The notes beneath the pieces are model-generated. The model worked only from the letters and a program-made list of their open reading frames with translations. It was not told the DNA's origin and did not search any database. Shown in pieces: positions 24,909-33,988 of a stretch of DNA of 33,988 nucleotides. How positions within the stretch are numbered: position 1 is the stretch's first letter; the number at the start of each line of letters is the position of its first letter. The DNA comes from Nitrososphaerales archaeon (GTDB lineage: Archaea > Thermoproteota > Nitrososphaeria_A > Caldarchaeales > Wolframiiraptoraceae), in NCBI GenBank assembly GCA_023269855.1, contig JAGDWP010000077.1, positions 1 through 33,988 of the forward strand, read 5' to 3'. Position numbers and translations under genes: made by a program.

Positions 24909-25006
24909 CGCGGCGGGAGGGATTTGAACCCTCGAGGCCCGAAGGGGCCACAGGCTGACTAGCTTACTCTCCAGGCCTGCCCCTTACCTGGCTAGGGTAC
25001 CGCCGC
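24909..25006 (-). tRNA. tRNA-Ser(GGA) with a 12-nt intron
   Basis: The minus strand folds as a class II tRNA: acceptor GCGGCGG/CCGCCGC with G73 (the serine discriminator), D arm with CCC/GGG, anticodon stem CAGGC/GCCTG, long variable arm GGCCCCTTCGGGCC, and T arm GAGGG-TTCAAAT-CCCTC. The anticodon loop is 19 nt instead of 7. Removing AGTAAGCTAGTC leaves CTGGAGA with anticodon GGA, which reads UCC/UCU. CTGG and CTAG form the 4-bp central helix of a bulge-helix-bulge, with 3-nt bulges (AGA, TCA) cut between bases 2 and 3, placing the intron at the canonical 37/38 site. CCA is not encoded. Confidence 0.95.
24957..24968 (-). other. 12-nt tRNA intron at position 37/38
   Basis: The intron AGTAAGCTAGTC is defined by the relaxed bulge-helix-bulge described for the tRNA; its own apical loop is too short for a second helix, so only the exon-side helix and the central helix form. 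Confidence 0.85.
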
Positions 25007-25130: not shown

Positions 25131-26174
25131 TTAGATGCGTACATTGTCTGCAAGTTTCCTGAGTATTGGATGAACGTATTCTCCATCTTTTATTATGGTT
25201 TCTCCATCTATTGTTAGTGTAGGGTTTAAGCAGATACCATCAGTATGTGAGCTCGCCAACCCAAGCTTTCCCTTGAACGTTGATGATTGGCTTCCGATCC
25301 CCCATTCGACTACACCCCATACCCTCTCATCTTCTAAAATATTTCCTGTAAGCTTCGCGCCAGGATTACATCCATAAGATAAATGCGCTATACAATACAT
25401 TTTCTCATCATTAAAATTCTCCAACCACTTCTTAAAGATCTTAGCTTCTCTCCCACCAGCTATCTCTATTATCCTACCCTCCTCAACACTTAGTATAATC
25501 GGTTCTTTTAATAATCCCAGCTCGTGCGGAGGCCATATAGACCCATCGAAAACTATTCTACCATTTATTGATTCCTCGATTGGAGCCCAATCAACTTGAC
25601 CAAAGAGCATATACTCTCCTGGACCTGAAACTTCTCCTTCAACGAGGACTGGTCTCTCAGGATCATTCTCAAACTCTACCTCCATTCCAGCAGGTGATGT
25701 TATCTTCACTCTCCTACCCTTACTGGTGAGTTCTGCTAATTTTCTCTGAAACTCATATATTACTGGGATGTTTACTCGACCGATGGTTCTAACAATCATG
25801 TCAACATTCATTCCAACTAGACACATGTATCTAGTCTTCCCAACCCGCATAGCTTCTTCGTAGACGGTTGAATAAAGTAGCCAACTCTTATTAAACTCGA
25901 TCCAGACATCGGAATTCTTTACACATTCAGTTAATGGTTGAAGAGGGAGATAGGGATCTGCAGCTCGGCCTACAGCTGGCGGGGAAGGATAAAACATGAT
26001 TAATGGTTTTCCACCAACGATATATGTGGCCTCAGCGACAGCTTCAGCAACTCTCCAGTCACCAGCAGTATCAACAGTAATAACGACGTTCTCTCCCCTC
26101 CCAATCTTGAGAACATCTTTTACAAGCTTATATGCTGCAGACATCAACTCCATCGATAACATTTCTGAAAACAT
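25131..26174 (-). CDS. M29-type metalloprotein (aminopeptidase T / NicX-like)
   Basis: A 347-residue protein of the aminopeptidase T (M29) superfamily. Visible features: N-terminal domain with VVITVDTAGDWRVAEAVAEA, a middle region GEVSGPGEYMLFGQVDW, and the C-terminal metal site containing SYGCNPGAKLTG, VVEWGIG and ASSHTDGI, whose His310 and Asp312 match the H-x-D ligands, then TIDGETIIKDGEY. The superfamily holds leucyl aminopeptidases and ring-opening dioxygenases such as NicX. Because it follows a hydantoin-racemase-like gene and a DUF917 gene in the same operon (6-nt gap), a role on a heterocyclic or N-carbamoyl substrate is as likely as plain peptidase activity. The substrate is unresolved. 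Confidence 0.75.
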   Translation of the reverse strand: MFSEMLSMELMSAAYKLVKDVLKIGRGENVVITVDTAGDWRVAEAVAEATYIVGGKPLIMFYPSPPAVGRAADPYLPLQPLTECVKNSDVWIEFNKSWLLYSTVYEEAMRVGKTRYMCLVGMNVDMIVRTIGRVNIPVIYEFQRKLAELTSKGRRVKITSPAGMEVEFENDPERPVLVEGEVSGPGEYMLFGQVDWAPIEESINGRIVFDGSIWPPHELGLLKEPIILSVEEGRIIEIAGGREAKIFKKWLENFNDEKMYCIAHLSYGCNPGAKLTGNILEDERVWGVVEWGIGSQSSTFKGKLGLASSHTDGICLNPTLTIDGETIIKDGEYVHPILRKLADNVRI

Positions 26175-26180
26175 GACTCA

Positions 26181-26840
26181 TCACCACTTCCTCAGCTTCA
26201 AGGATATTAAGCTTTCAACCATTTTTAATGCAGCAGCAGCTGGATCTATTACAGGTCTCCCAATAGCTTCAGAAACTTCTCCAGCCAATCCTGCCAATCC
26301 AGTACATCCAAGGATAATTACATCTGATCCTTCTTTAACTGCTTTCATGGACTCATTTATTAATTCTCTTCTTGTAATGTCCCAGTTCTTCTCAAGGTCT
26401 ACTACATGGATCTTTATTCCCCTGATTGTAGAGATTCTTTCACTGTACCCAAGCTCACGGCATCTCTGGTTTATCAAATTTAACGCTTCACTCTCAATAC
26501 TAACTATGCCGATTTTTCCTCCAAAGACTGATGCAAATGCTAAAGAGGATTCCCCCGGACCTACGACAGGTTTATGGAGAGATTTCTTTAATTCATCTAC
26601 GCCTGGGTCTAGGAAACAGTTAACGATTAATCCATCGTAACCTCTATGAGATTCTAAGGCTTTCTCTACTACTAGAGGCTTAACTATCTCATAGTCATTG
26701 ATTGTTTCAACGCTTGGGGGGCCACTGGCTAAGCTGACTACTTCAACTTCCGTGTCTGGGGAAGCAATACTCTTAAAGAATCTCCTATCACTCTCATCCC
26801 ACTTAGTATGTCCAACCGGGTTTATTACAAGTATCTTCAA
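26181..26840 (-). CDS. Asp/Glu/hydantoin racemase family protein
   Basis: A 219-residue protein of the Asp/Glu/hydantoin racemase superfamily, with two pseudo-symmetric halves and the catalytic Cys pair: Cys75 in LIVNCFLDPG and Cys179 in IILGCTGLAG. The N-terminal ILVINPVGHT and the VVGPGESS loop match the hydantoin/allantoin racemase branch. These are cofactor-free two-base racemases. It overlaps DUF917 by 4 nt and precedes the M29 gene. The protein encoded at 28008-28700, on the other side of the divergent promoter, is a paralogue. Both are intact, so they may act on different substrates. Confidence 0.85.
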   Translation of the reverse strand: MKILVINPVGHTKWDESDRRFFKSIASPDTEVEVVSLASGPPSVETINDYEIVKPLVVEKALESHRGYDGLIVNCFLDPGVDELKKSLHKPVVGPGESSLAFASVFGGKIGIVSIESEALNLINQRCRELGYSERISTIRGIKIHVVDLEKNWDITRRELINESMKAVKEGSDVIILGCTGLAGLAGEVSEAIGRPVIDPAAAALKMVESLISLKLRKW

Positions 26841-27937
26841 ATTATCCTCTCCACAAGTTCCTCAACTGGGATATAATCAATATCGAACCCGAACTTTCTA
26901 GGGCTGAAGAATTTTAAACCATTCTTTGTTCTCCATACTTCGGCTGCTTTAGCAACGACGACGTTTACTTTCATACCCTCTCTTAAAACAGTGTTAGTTA
27001 TTCCTTCACCTTCATCATTCAAGAAGATTATGAGGTCAGGGGCCATTGTAGCAGGTTCACCGTTTATCCAAGCCATTAAATGCTCATTCATTATCCATGT
27101 CTTAAGCTGTTTACCACTCCACCTACCTATACCCTCAACGACTGCTTCTCCTCTTAGAAATCCTTTCTCATCCCTATACCGATAAGATTTAACGTATCCT
27201 TCAAATATTTTCCATCCATCCAATATTTTCACAACTTCTTCGACAGGGTTGAGACCTCTATTTTTAGCAATCCTAACTGCTTCTCCAACCTTTAGACATA
27301 AAGTCAGAGTGTCTTTAATGACGACTTTCTCTGCATCATTTATCCTTAAAGGTGTATCTACTACTGCTACAAACCTACCTGATAAGACTGACAAGTATCT
27401 CGCAATAGCTTCATAATCATCTATATCACTATACTCGTATACTACGACTTTGTTCCCAGTCTCTGAAACGATTACTGAAGGGTACATTGGGACGCCAAAT
27501 ATATGAACAGTGCATTGATGAAGTTCAGGAGCGGCTCTCCCAAGAAGGTCTCCGTCAATGACTGGTAACCCCATGTATCCACCCATGTAGAGAGCTAGTG
27601 AAGCATTAAACCCGCCTAGCTCAGAAGCTAATACAGCAGAAATCTTAACACCTAGTATACGCTCCATCTCTTCGAAAGCTACCTTGATAGGTTCATTAAT
27701 CTTAACATGCTTCTTTGTCTTAGCTTCAGGAGCTATAGTCCCAACATAGTATGGAACAACAATAACTGAATCTCTATCAACTTCGGATAAGCTTACAAGC
27801 TTAACACTGCCACCTTTCGATAATATCTCCAAAATCAATCTTAACCCTTCTTCAGGGTCTCCGCCTCCACCTGTTCCAAGAATAGTGGCCCCTCTAACAA
27901 AATCCTCCGCACGCTTGACATCTTTAATCTCAAACAT
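26837..27937 (-). CDS. DUF917 family protein (hydantoinase-linked; S-Me-thiohydantoin desulfurase-like)
   Basis: A 366-residue protein with the DUF917 hallmark Gly-rich loop ILGTGGGGDPEEG (about 19-31), LGRAAPELHQC in the middle, and the C-terminal domain with NEHLMAWINGEPATMAPDLI. The family often sits beside hydantoinases, oxoprolinases and hydantoin racemases; one branch is known as S-methyl thiohydantoin desulfurase. The operon order (DUF917, racemase, M29 protein) supports use of a hydantoin-like or other cyclic amide compound. It is the first gene of the leftward operon, with GAAGGTG before ATG 27937. The exact reaction cannot be inferred. Confidence 0.8.
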   Translation of the reverse strand: MFEIKDVKRAEDFVRGATILGTGGGGDPEEGLRLILEILSKGGSVKLVSLSEVDRDSVIVVPYYVGTIAPEAKTKKHVKINEPIKVAFEEMERILGVKISAVLASELGGFNASLALYMGGYMGLPVIDGDLLGRAAPELHQCTVHIFGVPMYPSVIVSETGNKVVVYEYSDIDDYEAIARYLSVLSGRFVAVVDTPLRINDAEKVVIKDTLTLCLKVGEAVRIAKNRGLNPVEEVVKILDGWKIFEGYVKSYRYRDEKGFLRGEAVVEGIGRWSGKQLKTWIMNEHLMAWINGEPATMAPDLIIFLNDEGEGITNTVLREGMKVNVVVAKAAEVWRTKNGLKFFSPRKFGFDIDYIPVEELVERII

Positions 27938-27967
27938 ATCTTACACCTTCAAATCATGATGTGAGAC

Positions 27968-27981
27968 CCTTTAAATAAAGG
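27968..27981. promoter_or_regulatory. Near-palindromic bidirectional TATA element
   Basis: CCTTTAAATAAAGG is palindromic except at its centre. It is about 33 nt before TTG 28008 and about 37 nt before ATG 27937 on the other strand, so one TATA element can serve both divergent arms of the catabolic/transport island. Confidence 0.55.
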
Positions 27982-28007
27982 TTATCCATCTCTCTTAACG
28001 AGTTACA

Positions 28008-28700
28008 TTGGTTCACATATTCGTCTTAAACCCTGTATCGACAAGTATATGGAACGAGCTGACTGAAAAGACCCTTAGAAGAATAGCTTGTCCCAGTACA
28101 AGATTTACAGTTGAAAATCTAGAGAAAGGTCCCAAATCTATTGAATCTGAACTAGATGTTGTCTCAGCGTCACCATATGTAGTTGAGAAGATTGCTGAAG
28201 CTCAGGAGAAAGGATACAACGTAGCAGTGATTAATTGTTTCGATGACCCCGGTCTAGAAGCAGCTAGAGAGAAAGCATCCATGCTTGTTCTAGGAGTAGG
28301 TGAGACATCAATTATCTCAGCTCTACATCTCGGATACAAATTCGCAATAATATCTACTGGAGAAAAATCTAAAGCTTCATATGATCTTAAAGCCTTGAAA
28401 CTAGGCGTAAGAAGTAGGCTAGCTTATACATCCGGCATCTCTACAAAGGTTCTTGATTTGAGAAAAGATGAAGAGAAGACTAAGCAACTACTTTTAGAAG
28501 AAGCTGTGAAGGCAGTTGAAGAATTCCATGCAGAAGTAATAGTGCTTGGATGTAGTGGGATGATCGGTCTAGCTGAATGGTTGTCAGAGAAAATCAACGT
28601 CCCAGTAATAGATCCAACGATAACAACTTTCAAGATAGCTGAAGCTCTCGCATCAATAGGGATCAAGCATAGCAAGAAATATCTGTATAGAGTTGATTGA
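28008..28700 (+). CDS. Asp/Glu/hydantoin racemase family protein, paralogue
   Basis: A 230-residue racemase-superfamily protein with Cys77 (VINCFDDPG) and Cys182 (IVLGCSGMIG), the two catalytic cysteines, and the N-terminus VHIFVLNPVST like that of the racemase encoded at 26181-26840. The TTG start at 28008 is supported by the TATA element about 33 nt upstream (leaderless) and by the exact start of strand 1. It lies just before the ABC importer genes and is probably cotranscribed or coregulated with them, so its substrate may be what the importer brings in. Confidence 0.83.
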   Translation: MVHIFVLNPVSTSIWNELTEKTLRRIACPSTRFTVENLEKGPKSIESELDVVSASPYVVEKIAEAQEKGYNVAVINCFDDPGLEAAREKASMLVLGVGETSIISALHLGYKFAIISTGEKSKASYDLKALKLGVRSRLAYTSGISTKVLDLRKDEEKTKQLLLEEAVKAVEEFHAEVIVLGCSGMIGLAEWLSEKINVPVIDPTITTFKIAEALASIGIKHSKKYLYRVD

Positions 28701-28754
28701 TAGGGCAAACTTAATAAAAGTGTGGAAAACACTAAATAGTTGAGGATGGGGAAG

Positions 28755-30440
28755 ATGAATATTAAAGCAGTATCAAAATCTTTAGTAGCCATAGTCGTCA
28801 TAGTAATATTGATTGTTGCAGCTGCTGGATTATACTTTGTTTTAACTCCTACCCCAACAACTGTGACTACGACACCTCCTACAACAGTAGCAACTACACC
28901 TACTACTCCAACCACTATTACACCTACTACGCAAGTCACTAAGAAAGTTGTAGTTTACGCATCATTGTCAGAGATGACGACAGCCGACCCCAGCACTGAG
29001 TTCTCCAATTCTATACTATGGTTATGCCTAGTCTACGAGCCTTTACTGTGGTATAACCCTCTAGAGAATAAGTTTATCCCGGCTCTCGCAGAGAGGTGGG
29101 AGAGCTCTGAAGATGGAGCTGTCTGGACCTTCTATCTTAGGAAGGGAGTAGTATTCCATGATGGAACACCATTTACAGCTGAAGCCGTCAAATCATCATT
29201 AAACAGAACTATAACACTAGGGCAGGGAGCAGCTTTCATATGGGATCCAGTAGACAAGATAGAAGTTGTAGACGACTATACTGTAAGATTTGTATTGAAG
29301 TATCCTGCTCCACTTGATAGTATTGCTGCATCTTCTTATGGTGCATGGATATTCAGCCCGAAGACGCCGAATACTCCTGAATGGTTTAACCAAGGAAACG
29401 ATGCGGGAAGCGGACCATACAAGCTTGTAAAATGGGATCCTGAAAACGAGGTTGTTCTTGAAAAGTTTAATGAATGGTGGGGTTGGAAGCTCCCCTCATA
29501 TGAGATGGCTTCACCGAAGGCTCCAGACGTATTCATCGTAAAGATAGTTAAAGATGCTGTAACTCAGGAGAGGCTAGTTGTTTCAGGAGACATAGATATT
29601 GCAGAGTATGTTCCACTAGAAGATGTTGATAGATTAAAAGCAGACCCCAACCTACATGTAACAATTAAGCCAAGCTTCCAGAACCTACTCCTCTTACTTA
29701 ATACAAAGAAGAGCCCACTGGACAATGTTCTAGTCAGAAGAGCAATCGCACATGCTATCCCATACGAAGACATTGTGAAAGTAGCTAGGTCAGGTCTAGC
29801 CTCAGTAGCCAGCGGCCCCGTCCCAACAGGGATGTTTGGACACTTTGATGGCTTCAAGTATAAATATGATTTAGATGAAGCTAGGAGACTACTCGCTGAA
29901 GCAGGGTATCCAAATGGGATCGATAAAACATTAGTCCTAGTATATACAGCTGGAGACGTATATGAGCAGAGAACATCAGAATTGATAGCTACGAGTTTAG
30001 GCAAGATTGGTATTAAGGTAGATGTTCGACCTATGAGCTGGGAAGAGCAGTGGGCTCTAGCACAGTCGGGATGGGAAGATCCTGAGAAAGCACAAGACCT
30101 CTTCATCTTCTACTGGTGGCCAACATACATAACTCCATTCGACTTCCTTTACAATATGTTCCACAGTGAATCTAAATCATTCAACCTATGCTACTATGAA
30201 AACCCTGAATTTGAGAAATTAATAGAAGAAGCAGTAAGCCTTGAAGGTGTAGATAAAAAGAAAGCATTAGAACTATACTATAATGCTCAGAAGATCCTCT
30301 ACGAAGACGTTCCAGCCATCCCATTATGGGATATGATTGACGTGAGAGTTGGACGAGCACATATAGGAAACCTAGACAATGCAGTTAACCCAGCCTACCC
30401 AACCGTCATTTTTGCACAAGTATTAAGCATTGAGAAGTAG
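28755..30440 (+). CDS. ABC transporter substrate-binding protein (SBP family 5, oligopeptide type)
   Basis: About 561 residues from ATG 28755, preceded by GAGGATGGGG; TTG 28740 and ATG 28746 are alternatives. An N-terminal hydrophobic segment (LVAIVVIVILIVAAAGLYFV) anchors or exports it. A Thr/Pro-rich linker (TPTPTTVTTTPPTT...) follows, then a class 5 binding domain: LVYEPLLWYNP, ALAERWESSEDGAVWTFYLR and GVVFHDGTPFTAEAVKSS are the family signature. It captures peptides or related amides outside the cell. The linker is typical of archaeal membrane-anchored binding proteins. TTAATAAAAG at 28711-28720 is a likely TATA. Confidence 0.92.
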   Translation: MNIKAVSKSLVAIVVIVILIVAAAGLYFVLTPTPTTVTTTPPTTVATTPTTPTTITPTTQVTKKVVVYASLSEMTTADPSTEFSNSILWLCLVYEPLLWYNPLENKFIPALAERWESSEDGAVWTFYLRKGVVFHDGTPFTAEAVKSSLNRTITLGQGAAFIWDPVDKIEVVDDYTVRFVLKYPAPLDSIAASSYGAWIFSPKTPNTPEWFNQGNDAGSGPYKLVKWDPENEVVLEKFNEWWGWKLPSYEMASPKAPDVFIVKIVKDAVTQERLVVSGDIDIAEYVPLEDVDRLKADPNLHVTIKPSFQNLLLLLNTKKSPLDNVLVRRAIAHAIPYEDIVKVARSGLASVASGPVPTGMFGHFDGFKYKYDLDEARRLLAEAGYPNGIDKTLVLVYTAGDVYEQRTSELIATSLGKIGIKVDVRPMSWEEQWALAQSGWEDPEKAQDLFIFYWWPTYITPFDFLYNMFHSESKSFNLCYYENPEFEKLIEEAVSLEGVDKKKALELYYNAQKILYEDVPAIPLWDMIDVRVGRAHIGNLDNAVNPAYPTVIFAQVLSIEK

Positions 30441-30494
30441 AACGTCTGGGAGAGCTAACCAACACTTCCATACTTTTTTTGAAGGAGGAAGTAT

Positions 30495-31517
30495 ATGCCG
30501 ATCAATAGAGAATACCTCGTTAAGAGGCTTCTCCTCCTCATATTCGTAGTCATAGGAGTCTTATTCATGACTTTCATAATTACCAGAGTTATTCCTGCGA
30601 GACCTGAACTGCTCTGGGCTGGCCCTCATGCAACCATCGAGCAGATTAAGAAAGCGAGAGAACAGCTCAACCTAGATAAGCCTCCACACATACAGTTCAT
30701 TCTCTATCTACAAGACTTCTTCCTAGGTAATTGGGGTGTCTCATGGAGGACTAGGTCCCCGATCCTAACAGACGTACTCTCAAGTTTAACAGCTACACTA
30801 GAATTAATAATTGTAGCATTTGCAATCGCTTTTATCTTGGGAGTCCCGTTCGGAGTAGTGGCAGCCGTCAAGAAGTATACTTGGATCGATGATCTAGCTA
30901 GGATCATAACGGTTATAGGCGCCTCGATACCTGTATTCTGGCTTGCGTTAATAGCTCAACTAGTCTTCGGCACTTGGCTAGGGATTCTCCCATCTGCTAA
31001 GAGAGTGGATGAATGGGTTGTGATAGTGACTGGATTTAAACAGATCACTGGGTTCTATCTCATTGATAGCCTGATTCAGGGAAACTTCATGGTTTTCATA
31101 GATTCTCTAAAACACATAATTCTTCCAGCAGTTGTCCTCGCTTCATATCCATTCTGTCTAAGTGCTAGAATGACTAGAGCTGTAATGATGGAGGTTTTAA
31201 CCGAGCCGCATGTTAGAAGCCTAGTTGCTTGGGGTCTGCCGCAGAGAACTATATTCTTCAAATACTCTCTACGGAATACGCTTGCTCCAGTCATCGCATC
31301 CATCGGTTTATCATTCGGATACACAATTGTAGGAGCATTCATGGTTGAACTAGTCTTTGTATGGCCTGGTATAGGCTTCTATGCAGCTATGTCACTGCTT
31401 AGCTTTGATTACCCTGCGGTAATCGGATGTGTAGTAATAGTTGCAATATTCTACTGCATAATAAACACTGTAGTGGATGTGATCCATTCAGTCATAGACC
31501 CGAGGGTGAAACTATGA
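30495..31517 (+). CDS. ABC transporter permease (DppB/OppB type)
   Basis: A 340-residue polytopic protein with six helices: N-terminal YLVKRLLLLIFVVIGVLFMT, the N-terminal signature region ending FLGNWGVSWRTRSPIL, and the EAA-loop region EPHVRSLVAWGLPQRTIFFKY followed by SLRNTLAPVIASIGLSFGY. It has GAAGGAGGAAG before ATG 30495. It is the second gene of the importer operon and overlaps the next permease by 4 nt (ATGA). Confidence 0.92.
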   Translation: MPINREYLVKRLLLLIFVVIGVLFMTFIITRVIPARPELLWAGPHATIEQIKKAREQLNLDKPPHIQFILYLQDFFLGNWGVSWRTRSPILTDVLSSLTATLELIIVAFAIAFILGVPFGVVAAVKKYTWIDDLARIITVIGASIPVFWLALIAQLVFGTWLGILPSAKRVDEWVVIVTGFKQITGFYLIDSLIQGNFMVFIDSLKHIILPAVVLASYPFCLSARMTRAVMMEVLTEPHVRSLVAWGLPQRTIFFKYSLRNTLAPVIASIGLSFGYTIVGAFMVELVFVWPGIGFYAAMSLLSFDYPAVIGCVVIVAIFYCIINTVVDVIHSVIDPRVKL

Positions 31518-32401
31518 GAAGATTCAGAGAACAAAGAATAGTGTTAAGCTTAATCGTTAAGAAGCCTCTATCATTCGCTAGCCTGATAATAGTGTTAACT
31601 TTCATTATAATCGGAGTATCGTCGCCATTAATTGTACCTTACCCTGAAGACGCTTGGGGGCTTACATACAATGTTGAGAAAAGATTTCTACCTCCTGACA
31701 TTGAACACCCATTCGGAACAGATGCATTGGGAAGAGACGTCTTTAGTAGAGTCCTACTAGGCTCAAGCTTCTCATTAATCATTGCTATAGGGGTAATTGG
31801 GTTAGCATTAATTATAGGGATACCTGTAGGAGTATTAGCTGGATACTATGGAGGAAGAACTGGTACAGTATTGATGAGGATTACAGATATGTTCCTAGCT
31901 TTTCCACCCCTCCTACTTGCAATAGTTCTCGCTGCAACTCTTGGAAGAGGTCTCTTAAACTTGATCATTGCTCTAGCGATATCTTGGTGGCCATGGTATG
32001 CGAGACTAGTATATGTTCAAACAAATACAGTGAAGAACATGCCATATGTTGATGCTGCAAAGATAGCTGGTCTATCAAACCTAAAAATCGTTAGTAAACA
32101 TATAATCCCAAATGCTTTAACACCTACTTTTGTTCAAGCAGCACTCGATATGGGTTCAGCGATACTTGAAGCAGCTGGACTAAGTTTTATAGGTGTAGGA
32201 GTTAAGCCTCCTACACCTGAGTGGGGTTTACTAGTAAGTGAAGGATGGCAATCAATAAACTATGCATGGTGGATAGCTTTCTTCCCAGGTTTAGCAATAC
32301 TCATAACAGTAGTAGGCTTTAACCTACTTGCAGACGCTATAAGAGAATCAGCAGACCCGAGAATTAGAAGAACTATATTGAGAAAAGTTATAAACTTTTA
32401 G
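31514..32401 (+). CDS. ABC transporter permease (DppC/OppC type)
   Basis: About 295 residues from ATG 31514, which overlaps the upstream stop (ATGA) and follows GAGGGTGAA; the longer upstream reading is only an overlapping frame of the DppB gene. N-terminal TM, the DppC-type segment HPFGTDALGRDVFSRVLLGS, and the EAA loop AAKIAGLSNLKIVSKHIIPNALTP with GLSFIGVGVKPPTPEWG are all present. No OppD/OppF ATPase genes follow: the next gene is a broken oxidoreductase, so the ATPases must be encoded elsewhere or have been lost. Confidence 0.93.
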   Translation: MRRFREQRIVLSLIVKKPLSFASLIIVLTFIIIGVSSPLIVPYPEDAWGLTYNVEKRFLPPDIEHPFGTDALGRDVFSRVLLGSSFSLIIAIGVIGLALIIGIPVGVLAGYYGGRTGTVLMRITDMFLAFPPLLLAIVLAATLGRGLLNLIIALAISWWPWYARLVYVQTNTVKNMPYVDAAKIAGLSNLKIVSKHIIPNALTPTFVQAALDMGSAILEAAGLSFIGVGVKPPTPEWGLLVSEGWQSINYAWWIAFFPGLAILITVVGFNLLADAIRESADPRIRRTILRKVINF

Positions 32402-32417
32402 AACTTCTACAAGAGTG

Positions 32418-32986
32418 ATGAGTGAAAAACTTTATTGTTACACAGGTAAAGTTCTCAGAGTTAATTTAACAGACAGGGGCTTCAAGATCGAAGAGACTAG
32501 AAGAGACTTTGTTGAGAAATATATTAGTGGCAGAGGTTTAGGGATTAGATACTTGCTTGAAGAAGTACTCCTAGGATTGATCCATTAAGTCCTGAGAATA
32601 AGCTGATTATTTCAACGGGTCCGCTACTGGGACAGTTCTTGAATAGTATTAAATGGTCTCTGATGATATGTGATTTCTGGCTCTCAAGCTATGAAGACAT
32701 GGCAAAACTACTAAAAGATGCGTTAGGGAGAGAATACAAAGTAGAAGAGTTAAGATTAATCGGGGAAGGAATCTGGAATATTTCTAGAATCTTCAATATT
32801 AGAGAAGGCTTCAAGAGAGAAGATGATACTCTTCCTCCAAAGATGTTTTACGAACCTCTAAGAGGCGGAAAGACTGATGGAAAAACAGTCGACCTAAACC
32901 AGTTCAAAGAATCACTTACAGAATACTATAAGCTGAGAGGATGGAATGAAGAAACTGGGAAACCTAAAGAAGAAACATTGATATGA
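32418..32986 (+). pseudogene. Aldehyde:ferredoxin oxidoreductase pseudogene (deleted and frame-broken)
   Basis: The start ATG 32418 opens a clear AOR N-terminus (GKVLRVNLTD, then FVEKYISGRGLGIRYLLEEV). The frame breaks at about 32568-32573; one added base restores IDPLSPENKLIISTGPLLG. The text then jumps directly into the AOR C-terminus (FNIREGFKREDDTLPPKM, VDLNQFKESLTEYYKLRGW). Roughly 400 or more residues of the usual about 600 are missing, including the pterin-binding and Fe-S cysteine region. The C-terminus is cut at KPKEETLI, where the tRNA fragment begins. Such enzymes oxidise aldehydes with tungsten/molybdopterin and reduce ferredoxin; this copy cannot. Confidence 0.85.
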
Positions 32987-33029
32987 CCTGCTGACGCAGG
33001 CTTTCGTGAGTTCGAATCCCACTCCTACA
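32986..33029 (+). pseudogene. tRNA 3'-half fragment (Leu-like, class II)
   Basis: The sequence runs as the 3' half of a class II tRNA: anticodon-stem 3' strand CCTGC, a variable region TGACGCAGGCTTTC, the T arm GTGAG-TTCGAAT-CCCAC (one A-C mismatch), and acceptor strand TCCTACA, one base short of the usual spacing. There is no matching 5' half upstream; the truncated AOR coding sequence abuts it. The pattern of a fragment from the anticodon loop to the 3' end is that of an archaeal att core left by tRNA-directed integration. The isotype is uncertain. Confidence 0.65.
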
Positions 33030-33893
33030 TCTTTTTATTTATCTTCCATGTGATTTTAATAGAAAAAGAATGGTGGGGGTTGAGGGCTTTCATCAACTTC
33101 TCCATCTTCCTCTTAATAGTGAATCCTATGAGTTCAGCAAACCTCCGCCTAGAACTTGCTCGAATATAAAGATAGTAAACATCTTTCCTTGTATAATACG
33201 TTTTTCCTATCTTTTTATCATAGAACGGTGTCCCCCTCTTTATTAATAGATGTGGTCCTGTCGCTTCTATATTCAACTTCAGTAATAGTTGTTTAACGTA
33301 GTTGAGAATTACTAGGTCTGTATTATAAACAAGTATATTTCCGTTCTTATCTACAGTCCCTTCACTATCAAAGAATGCTCTAAGAAATGATGTCATCGTC
33401 TCTACACTGTATTCAATATAGTATCTCAGTCTATCAATATCCAATGGTTTCCTCAACAATTCATATAATGTTTTTGAATATCCTTCAACAATGTAGAGTC
33501 CATTTTGTCGATCTTTTCCAATATATGGTTTTGATTGTGTAATGACTTCAAGACATTTGGCAAACTCCATGGCATGTTCAACGTCCTTACATTTTAAACC
33601 AATTATATAGTAATATCTCTTCTTTTTCTTATTTTTATATATCCGTCTCCAGCCATGTCGCCGATGATGAATGCTAACTCCTCCAATGGTTTAATATCAT
33701 CAAACATTATCGATTCTCTTCCACAGGGATTATAGATATCTCTTAACCAGTAACTTATATGTGATTTCGATAACTTCTCATTATACTTCTCTTGAATCAC
33801 CTTTATTATTTGACTATATGATAGTCCAAGCCTCCTAAGACTATGCACTTCATCGTATAATTTCACTCTTAGCTCTAGCGGTCTAAGCTTCAT
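33025..33893 (-). pseudogene. HTH-LAGLIDADG homing endonuclease, frame-broken
   Basis: From ATG 33893 (GAAGGT upstream) the first frame encodes an N-terminal HTH (LRRLGLSYSQIIKVIQEKYN, SKSHISYWLRDI) and the first catalytic motif, LAFIIGDMAGDGYI. It breaks at the A5 run (33623-33627, minus strand AAAAAGAAG). In the -1 frame it continues YYYIIGLKCKDVEHAMEFAK to the second motif, SFLRAFFDSEGTV, and C-terminus, ending at TAG 33025-33027. Joined, about 289 residues, which fits a two-motif LAGLIDADG enzyme. The stop lies inside the tRNA fragment's acceptor strand. If the break is real the enzyme is dead. It follows the membrane protein at 33898 by 4 nt. Confidence 0.75.
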
Positions 33894-33897
33894 ACCT

Positions 33898-33988
33898 TCA
33901 CACTCCTAGAAGCATCAATAGTATCGGTATAAGTAGTAGCATTGTTATTAATCCTATTAGTGGTCCAAGCGGGTCTGTTACTGGTGGT
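33898..33988 (-). CDS. C-terminus of a small membrane protein (cut by the window end)
   Basis: Only the last 29 codons are in the window. They end in a hydrophobic helix (PLIGLITMLLLIPILLMLLG, then V) and stop at TGA 33898-33900, 4 nt before the endonuclease ATG. The PVTDPLGP just before the helix suggests a short loop before the last transmembrane segment. No family can be named; it is probably cotranscribed with the endonuclease gene. Confidence 0.55.
   Translation of the reverse strand, partial: PPVTDPLGPLIGLITMLLLIPILLMLLGV

Follow-up and report, generated by a model that had tools for sequence, protein, structure and literature searches.

The window analyzed here, a complete contig of 33,988 bases (C34) in a 1.64 Mb metagenome-assembled genome (G000), comes from a hot-spring archaeon whose closest named relatives are Candidatus Geocrenenecus (Wolframiiraptoraceae, Aigarchaeota). 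Seven genes between positions 25131 and 32401 are read here, with middling confidence, as an importer-linked catabolic operon, in which a cyclic amide or peptide-like compound would be imported and a protein resembling NicX (2,5-dihydroxypyridine 5,6-dioxygenase) would take, beside a DUF917 protein, the place that other loci give to the hydantoinase HyuA. Clusters of this kind are already known; the NicX-like partner of DUF917 is new. A preliminary description had pointed out these genes as a catabolic and transport island, and all seven open reading frames were verified at their positions, six of them with Pfam assignments, and found again as a set in relatives. They form two divergent arms separated by a 70-base gap: DUF917, racemase A, and the NicX-like gene (first labeled M29) in the minus arm, and racemase B, a family 5 solute-binding protein (SBP5), and two permeases in the plus arm.

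25131–26174, minus strand: NicX/M29-superfamily metalloprotein, 347 amino acids (sequence, profile, and fold searches, and alignment)
26181–26840, minus strand: Asp/Glu/hydantoin racemase A (racA), PF01177, motifs CFLDPG and GCTG (Pfam, alignment)
26837–27937, minus strand: DUF917 / S-methyl-thiohydantoin-desulfurase-like protein, PF06032 and PF20906 (Pfam, NCBIfam)
27968–27981, no strand: near-palindromic TATA box CCTTTAAATAAAGG between the arms (motif comparison with relatives)
28008–28700, plus strand: Asp/Glu/hydantoin racemase B (racB), PF01177, motifs CFDDPG and GCSG (Pfam, alignment)
28740–30440, plus strand: family 5 solute-binding protein of the Opp/Dpp type with an N-terminal membrane segment (Pfam, NCBIfam)
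30495–31517, plus strand: DppB/OppB-type permease (Pfam PF00528)
31511–32401, plus strand: DppC/OppC-type permease, permease C (Pfam PF00528; start set from orthologs, which moved it from 31427 to about 31511)

Alternative partners of DUF917

We surveyed 398 sampled genomes of the phylum, counting genes within 2 kb of DUF917 as its neighbors and proteins of at least 40% identity as NicX-like. DUF917 occurs at 83 places in 64 genomes, and the NicX-like protein in 32 genomes. Eighteen of the 83 places have a NicX-like neighbor and 25 a short HyuA neighbor, and none has both (Fisher p values of 2.6e-8 and 6.2e-6 for the partner pattern, with relatedness ignored). The NicX-like-paired places span ten family codes and the HyuA-paired places nine; at four further places the neighbor is a distant M29-type protein, and the three of these that were read are all canonical M29 by motif. 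Part of the relatedness problem is answered by a tree of 64 DUF917 proteins, including sequences from Haloferax, Mesorhizobium, and Geobacillus plasmids. All 27 HyuA-paired proteins, the plasmid ones among them, form one clade with a support of 100/100, and all 18 NicX-like-paired proteins fall within one 26-member clade (98/99) that has no HyuA-paired member. Accompanying this separation, three alignment columns split the two DUF917 types cleanly (Q141 versus Met, S183 versus Thr, and T195 versus Tyr), and the survey found no HyuA beside the window's type. Five genomes (G131, G223, G270, G332, and G380) have both systems at separate places; the two are therefore parallel systems, and one was not simply lost for the other. 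Given this either-or pattern, the NicX-like protein appears to stand in for HyuA beside DUF917. Conserved clustering, on which the preliminary description had staked its reading, was thus found, 18 of the 27 window-type DUF917 genes having the M29-like gene within 2 kb in ten families. Its idea of a hydrolase or ring-opening role for that protein also gains strength, because the protein sits where HyuA sits and never with HyuA.

On the Haloferax, Mesorhizobium, and Geobacillus plasmids DUF917 adjoins HyuA, in the first two downstream of a complete ABC importer. The loci of Haloferax mediterranei (pHME132) and Mesorhizobium sp. AR02 (pMspAR02c) have a solute-binding protein, two permeases, two ATPases, and DUF917 in common with the operon of the window's relatives, but HyuA adjoins DUF917 in place of the NicX-like protein and no racemase is annotated alongside.

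In a tree of the NicX-like family, the DUF917-linked members are not gathered in one clade, so the link between the two is closer when viewed from DUF917. At 0.85, the mirror-tree correlation of the NicX-like protein with DUF917 does not exceed that with the permeases (0.81–0.85) and hence adds nothing beyond shared inheritance. Judged by gene neighborhoods, the most general tie of the NicX-like protein is to the importer, its tie to DUF917 belonging to one large lineage, because the importer accompanies it both at a second locus and in the genus g4 of the same family. This second, paralogous locus of the window's genus combines genes for SBP5, OppDF, and two permeases with those for DUF1177, AroM, a racemase, another DUF917, and a NicX-like protein. 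In the window genome it is found in pieces on C41:187-2881 and C10:149-7894 (also L030 and L031), and the DUF917 protein of its G005 copy reaches 307 bits with the thiohydantoin desulfurase model, nearer than that of the window. In the g4 genomes, racemase B, Opp genes, and the NicX-like gene occur together with a canonical M29 gene, and no DUF917 is adjacent to them.

The NicX-like protein and its predicted metal site

The product of the gene labeled M29 is the one of the seven proteins that Pfam did not assign, and it matched no family even at E 10, M29 (PF02073, 27-bit threshold) included. NicX (7cn3) is the one solved structure related to it in sequence, with an E-value of 9.7e-10 for the single sequence and 6.9e-30 for the profile. 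NicX coordinates Fe(II) through H265, S302, H318, and D320, and its activity requires each of them (PMC7910607). In the superfamily alignment, the window protein has H264, H310, and D312 in the three His/Asp columns of NicX, which are accordingly its predicted metal ligands, and Gly, as in its whole clade, in the column of S302.

Compared with the M29 aminopeptidases, such as AmpT, AmpS, and PepS, the protein shares the superfamily fold and the C-terminal HxD motif. The metal ligands of those enzymes, which we take to be Glu, Glu, His, and His-x-Asp, are replaced at the first three positions by Gln193, His264, and Glu290, respectively. The canonical M29 members of the same clusters show the motifs GE, AE, VH, and HxD, whereas the window clade shows GQ, AH, mostly VE, and HxD; Glu290, near the predicted site, is not invariant, since three members have Val there and one has Asp. 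We rejected an M29 aminopeptidase identity because three metal ligands are replaced and no M29 profile match exists, and the original label is wrong for the loss of these ligands. Since the M29 ligand columns and the NicX Ser column both differ, the clade belongs neither with the canonical M29 peptidases nor fully with NicX.

An AlphaFold model computed from five closely related input sequences has a mean confidence of 59; with this low-confidence model, the best Foldseek match in the PDB was NicX (1.7e-15), followed by PepS, AmpT, and AmpS. Among plasmid relatives of the protein at 25–30% identity, the operon was absent from the four regions read, one of which carries no gene annotation; the relative in Variovorax adjoins an M20 gene. 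At 7173-11161 of L125 (G347), a NicX-like gene adjoins a proline racemase family gene and a DAO-type FAD oxidase, a neighborhood that hints at imino or D-amino acid chemistry.

Operon architecture in the window and in relatives

Racemases A and B score 138.8 and 144.7 bits to PF01177 (cut-off 31), respectively, the solute-binding protein 312.9 bits to PF00496, and the two permeases match PF00528. Both catalytic-Cys motifs are intact in the two racemases and likewise in their orthologs, save for single changes beside the first cysteine, and the best solved relatives are named hydantoin and allantoin racemases. Both DUF917 domains pass the Pfam cut-off of 27 (PF06032, 149.1 bits; PF20906, 180.4 bits), and the residues near-invariant over 64 relatives are kept (E106, D128, D130, R134, N284, and E285); the only match in a fold search was the uncharacterised structure 2o3i. 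A window-type DUF917 gene at 5611-9501 of L098 (G069) adjoins a TauE/SafE exporter and a sulphur-transport gene, possibly a sulfur-compound setting. The DUF917 gene and racA overlap by 4 bases. The TATA box in the gap between the arms has a chance expectation of 0.03 in the window with at most one mismatch allowed. Its core, TTAAATAAA, is present in the gap of four of five relatives, and the gap of L019 carries TTTATAAG; because of this recurrence, a single bidirectional promoter region between the arms is likely.

The seven genes recur in identical order and orientation in G006, G007, G019, G005, and G256/L036, with amino-acid identities of about 61–89%, although the contig end breaks off the last gene in the G005 and G256/L036 copies. 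In these five relatives the plus arm extends into OppD and OppF, which are followed in four of them (G006, G007, G019, and G005) by an ArgE/DapE-like M20 hydrolase that scores 540 bits with PRK13983 (NCBIfam, M20 family metallo-hydrolase), above the cut-off of 333. No transporter ATPase gene lies within the window. Contig C65 of the window genome carries at its end orthologs of OppD, OppF, and the M20 hydrolase (77, 76, and 74% identity), which adjoin a secY/truB region that forms the border of the operon in G007 (secY and truB were named by eye from sequence starts). The components of an Opp/Dpp importer are thus all found: an SBP5 and two permeases in the window and two oligo_HPY ATPase orthologs on C65. 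An added hydrolase, for which the preliminary description had advised looking, is found in the M20 gene beside the ATPases in the four relatives and on C65. Its remark that no hydantoinase was in view holds for the window but not for the genome, where an unlinked HyuA/HyuB hydantoinase/oxoprolinase pair lies at the end of contig C118 (L112:6105-9323, minus strand).

Outside the operon, two elements close the contig.

32402–33000, plus strand: aldehyde:ferredoxin oxidoreductase gene remnant (89% and 99% identical to two parts of a C106 gene)
33003–33988, minus strand: LAGLIDADG-type repeat element (many copies in the genome)

The remnant occupies the place expected for the ATPase genes and consists of two pieces, matching separated parts of the intact C106 gene, fused straight after permease C; it represents either a recent duplication with deletion or a misassembly. 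The break after permease C would reflect either an insertion or rearrangement that split the operon, or an assembly error at the LAGLIDADG repeat. G000 holds 23 matches to this repeat, which is about 0.9 kb long (window 33003-33930 and 22 other places, such as C119:14386-15248, C9:199-1076, and C115:14844-15775); they are 74–87% identical to the window copy, and several lie at contig ends. In 21 further genomes of the family no good match turned up, and the repeat appears to be a homing-endonuclease element that expanded specifically in this lineage. Its left edge (window 33000-33050) contains GAGTTCGAATCCCACTCCTACATC, which resembles a tRNA gene 3' end, and several copies begin near the same point, a hint that the element accompanies a tRNA end or is targeted to one; neither ARAGORN nor Rfam called a tRNA at 33000-33050. 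At 24909-25006 on the minus strand, Rfam detects a tRNA gene (47.9 bits) that ARAGORN missed, by eye probably a serine tRNA with a short intron.

Proposed function and competing readings

In the proposed pathway, the Opp/Dpp-type ABC transporter would take up a small peptide-like or cyclic amide compound, and the two cofactor-independent racemases would equalise its stereochemistry so that either stereoisomer could be used. DUF917 and the NicX-fold metalloprotein, as a pair, would then open or hydrolyse the ring or amide, the latter holding the position of the ATP-dependent HyuA in this DUF917 lineage, and an M20 deacylase may often free an amino acid in the last step. Because the Ser ligand of NicX is gone and the host lineage is described as anaerobic, the NicX-like protein would probably act without oxygen, as a mononuclear-metal hydrolase and not as an oxygenase. 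The preliminary interpretation survives in part in this scheme: the functional unit of an Opp-type importer, DUF917, two hydantoin-type racemases with both cysteines, and a metal-dependent enzyme stands, as does the hydrolase idea, with a hydantoin, N-acyl, or other cyclic amide as the putative substrate, and the M29 label falls. A more specific version, which we advance tentatively and would rather doubt than assert, takes the NicX-fold clade as an oxygen- and ATP-independent cyclic-amide ring-opening hydrolase that replaces HyuA as the DUF917 partner in Thermoproteota, that is, as part of a new two-component hydantoinase-like system.

Several observations weigh against the proposed pathway. 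No cyclic-amide substrate is known from a characterised close relative of any gene in the set, and the cargo of SBP5 transporters includes many non-peptide compounds. Nine of the 27 DUF917 genes of the window type have no NicX-like gene within 2 kb, although in one of them, G376, such a gene lies at the edge of another contig. Conversely, six related genomes have the NicX-like protein without an adjacent DUF917, those read having it beside a transporter and a racemase, and hence the pair is not obligatory. The window DUF917 scores 77 and 63.4 bits against the NCBIfam desulfurase models NF058532 and NF058529 (cut-offs 450 and 440), and the active site of the NicX-like model is poor (pLDDT < 50 across residues 262–316), so that the predicted site rests on the alignment.

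Similar gene sets were described around cyclodipeptide oxidase (CDO), where DUF917 clusters with hydantoin racemases, AroM, and dipeptide transporters and was proposed as a possible hydantoinase (PMC11055893). The CDO-containing clusters are likewise enriched in hydantoin racemase, DUF917, dipeptide/oligopeptide ABC transporters, and peptidases, but AroM occurs in the window's genus only at the second, paralogous locus; no CDO gene was seen in the operon, and no nitroreductase-fold match was found on C34 or C65 with PF00881, which may miss CDO proteins. The hydantoin utilisation (hyu) clusters share a hydantoin-type racemase and an M20-superfamily hydrolase with this operon, which, however, lacks HyuA/HyuB and dihydropyrimidinase, and its ArgE/DapE-like M20 protein is at most a putative carbamoylase.

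The strongest competitor is ordinary peptide scavenging, in which linear oligopeptides, some with D-residues, are imported, the NicX-like and M20 proteins act as peptidases or deacylases, the racemases act on D-amino acids, and DUF917 has a side role. The SBP5/Opp family of the transporter and the ArgE/DapE-like neighbor suit this reading, as do the NicX-like genes that adjoin canonical M29 in the g4 genomes, M20 in G352, and the proline racemase and DAO-type oxidase in G347; other Opp loci of the window genome accompany racemases and an M24 peptidase. However, the NicX-like protein is without the M29 aminopeptidase ligands, this DUF917 lineage stays with the NicX-like gene in ten families, and the racemases bear the CFxDPG motif of hydantoin-racemase-type structures. 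We consider scavenging rather unlikely.

Distinctly improbable, in our judgment, is an oxidative N-heterocycle pathway. Here the NicX-like protein would cleave the ring of an imported heterocycle as a genuine Fe(II) dioxygenase, and its products would be processed by DUF917, the racemases, and M20. In favor of this, NicX alone among solved structures is related in sequence and also leads the fold matches, and the equivalents of H265, H318, and D320 are conserved. In contrast, Gly replaces S302, the fourth Fe ligand, on which NicX depends (PMC7910607), and no nicotinate-pathway partners accompany the gene, the hydrolase, isochorismatase-family, and maleate isomerase genes that flank a Pseudosulfitobacter NicX homologue not being nearby. 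In addition, the Wolframiiraptoraceae are described as anaerobic and thermophilic (PMC9246946). Least probable of all is a route for thiohydantoin or another sulfur compound, with DUF917 as a desulfurase and the remaining enzymes recycling the resulting hydantoin: although DUF917 belongs to the Pfam S-Me-THD family, related proteins are called desulfurases by NCBIfam, and the G069 gene adjoins TauE and sulphur-transport genes, the window protein scores far under both thiohydantoin desulfurase equivalog cut-offs, and no sulfur gene occurs in its operon or the other operons read (literature searches on thiohydantoin desulfurase, DUF1177, and ergothioneine with thiohydantoin returned nothing useful).

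On the reading of an importer-linked operon with a NicX-like protein in the place of HyuA, the either-or pattern, with each partner confined to one DUF917 clade, opens the function to direct test. The NicX-like proteins form a sizeable group, now annotated as leucyl aminopeptidases, that is separated here from the true M29 peptidases. DUF917, AroM, DUF1177, and the M29/NicX-like group co-occur repeatedly in archaea and bacteria without an assigned pathway, and the NicX-like protein may serve DUF917 in the role of HyuA, whatever that role is, by other chemistry.

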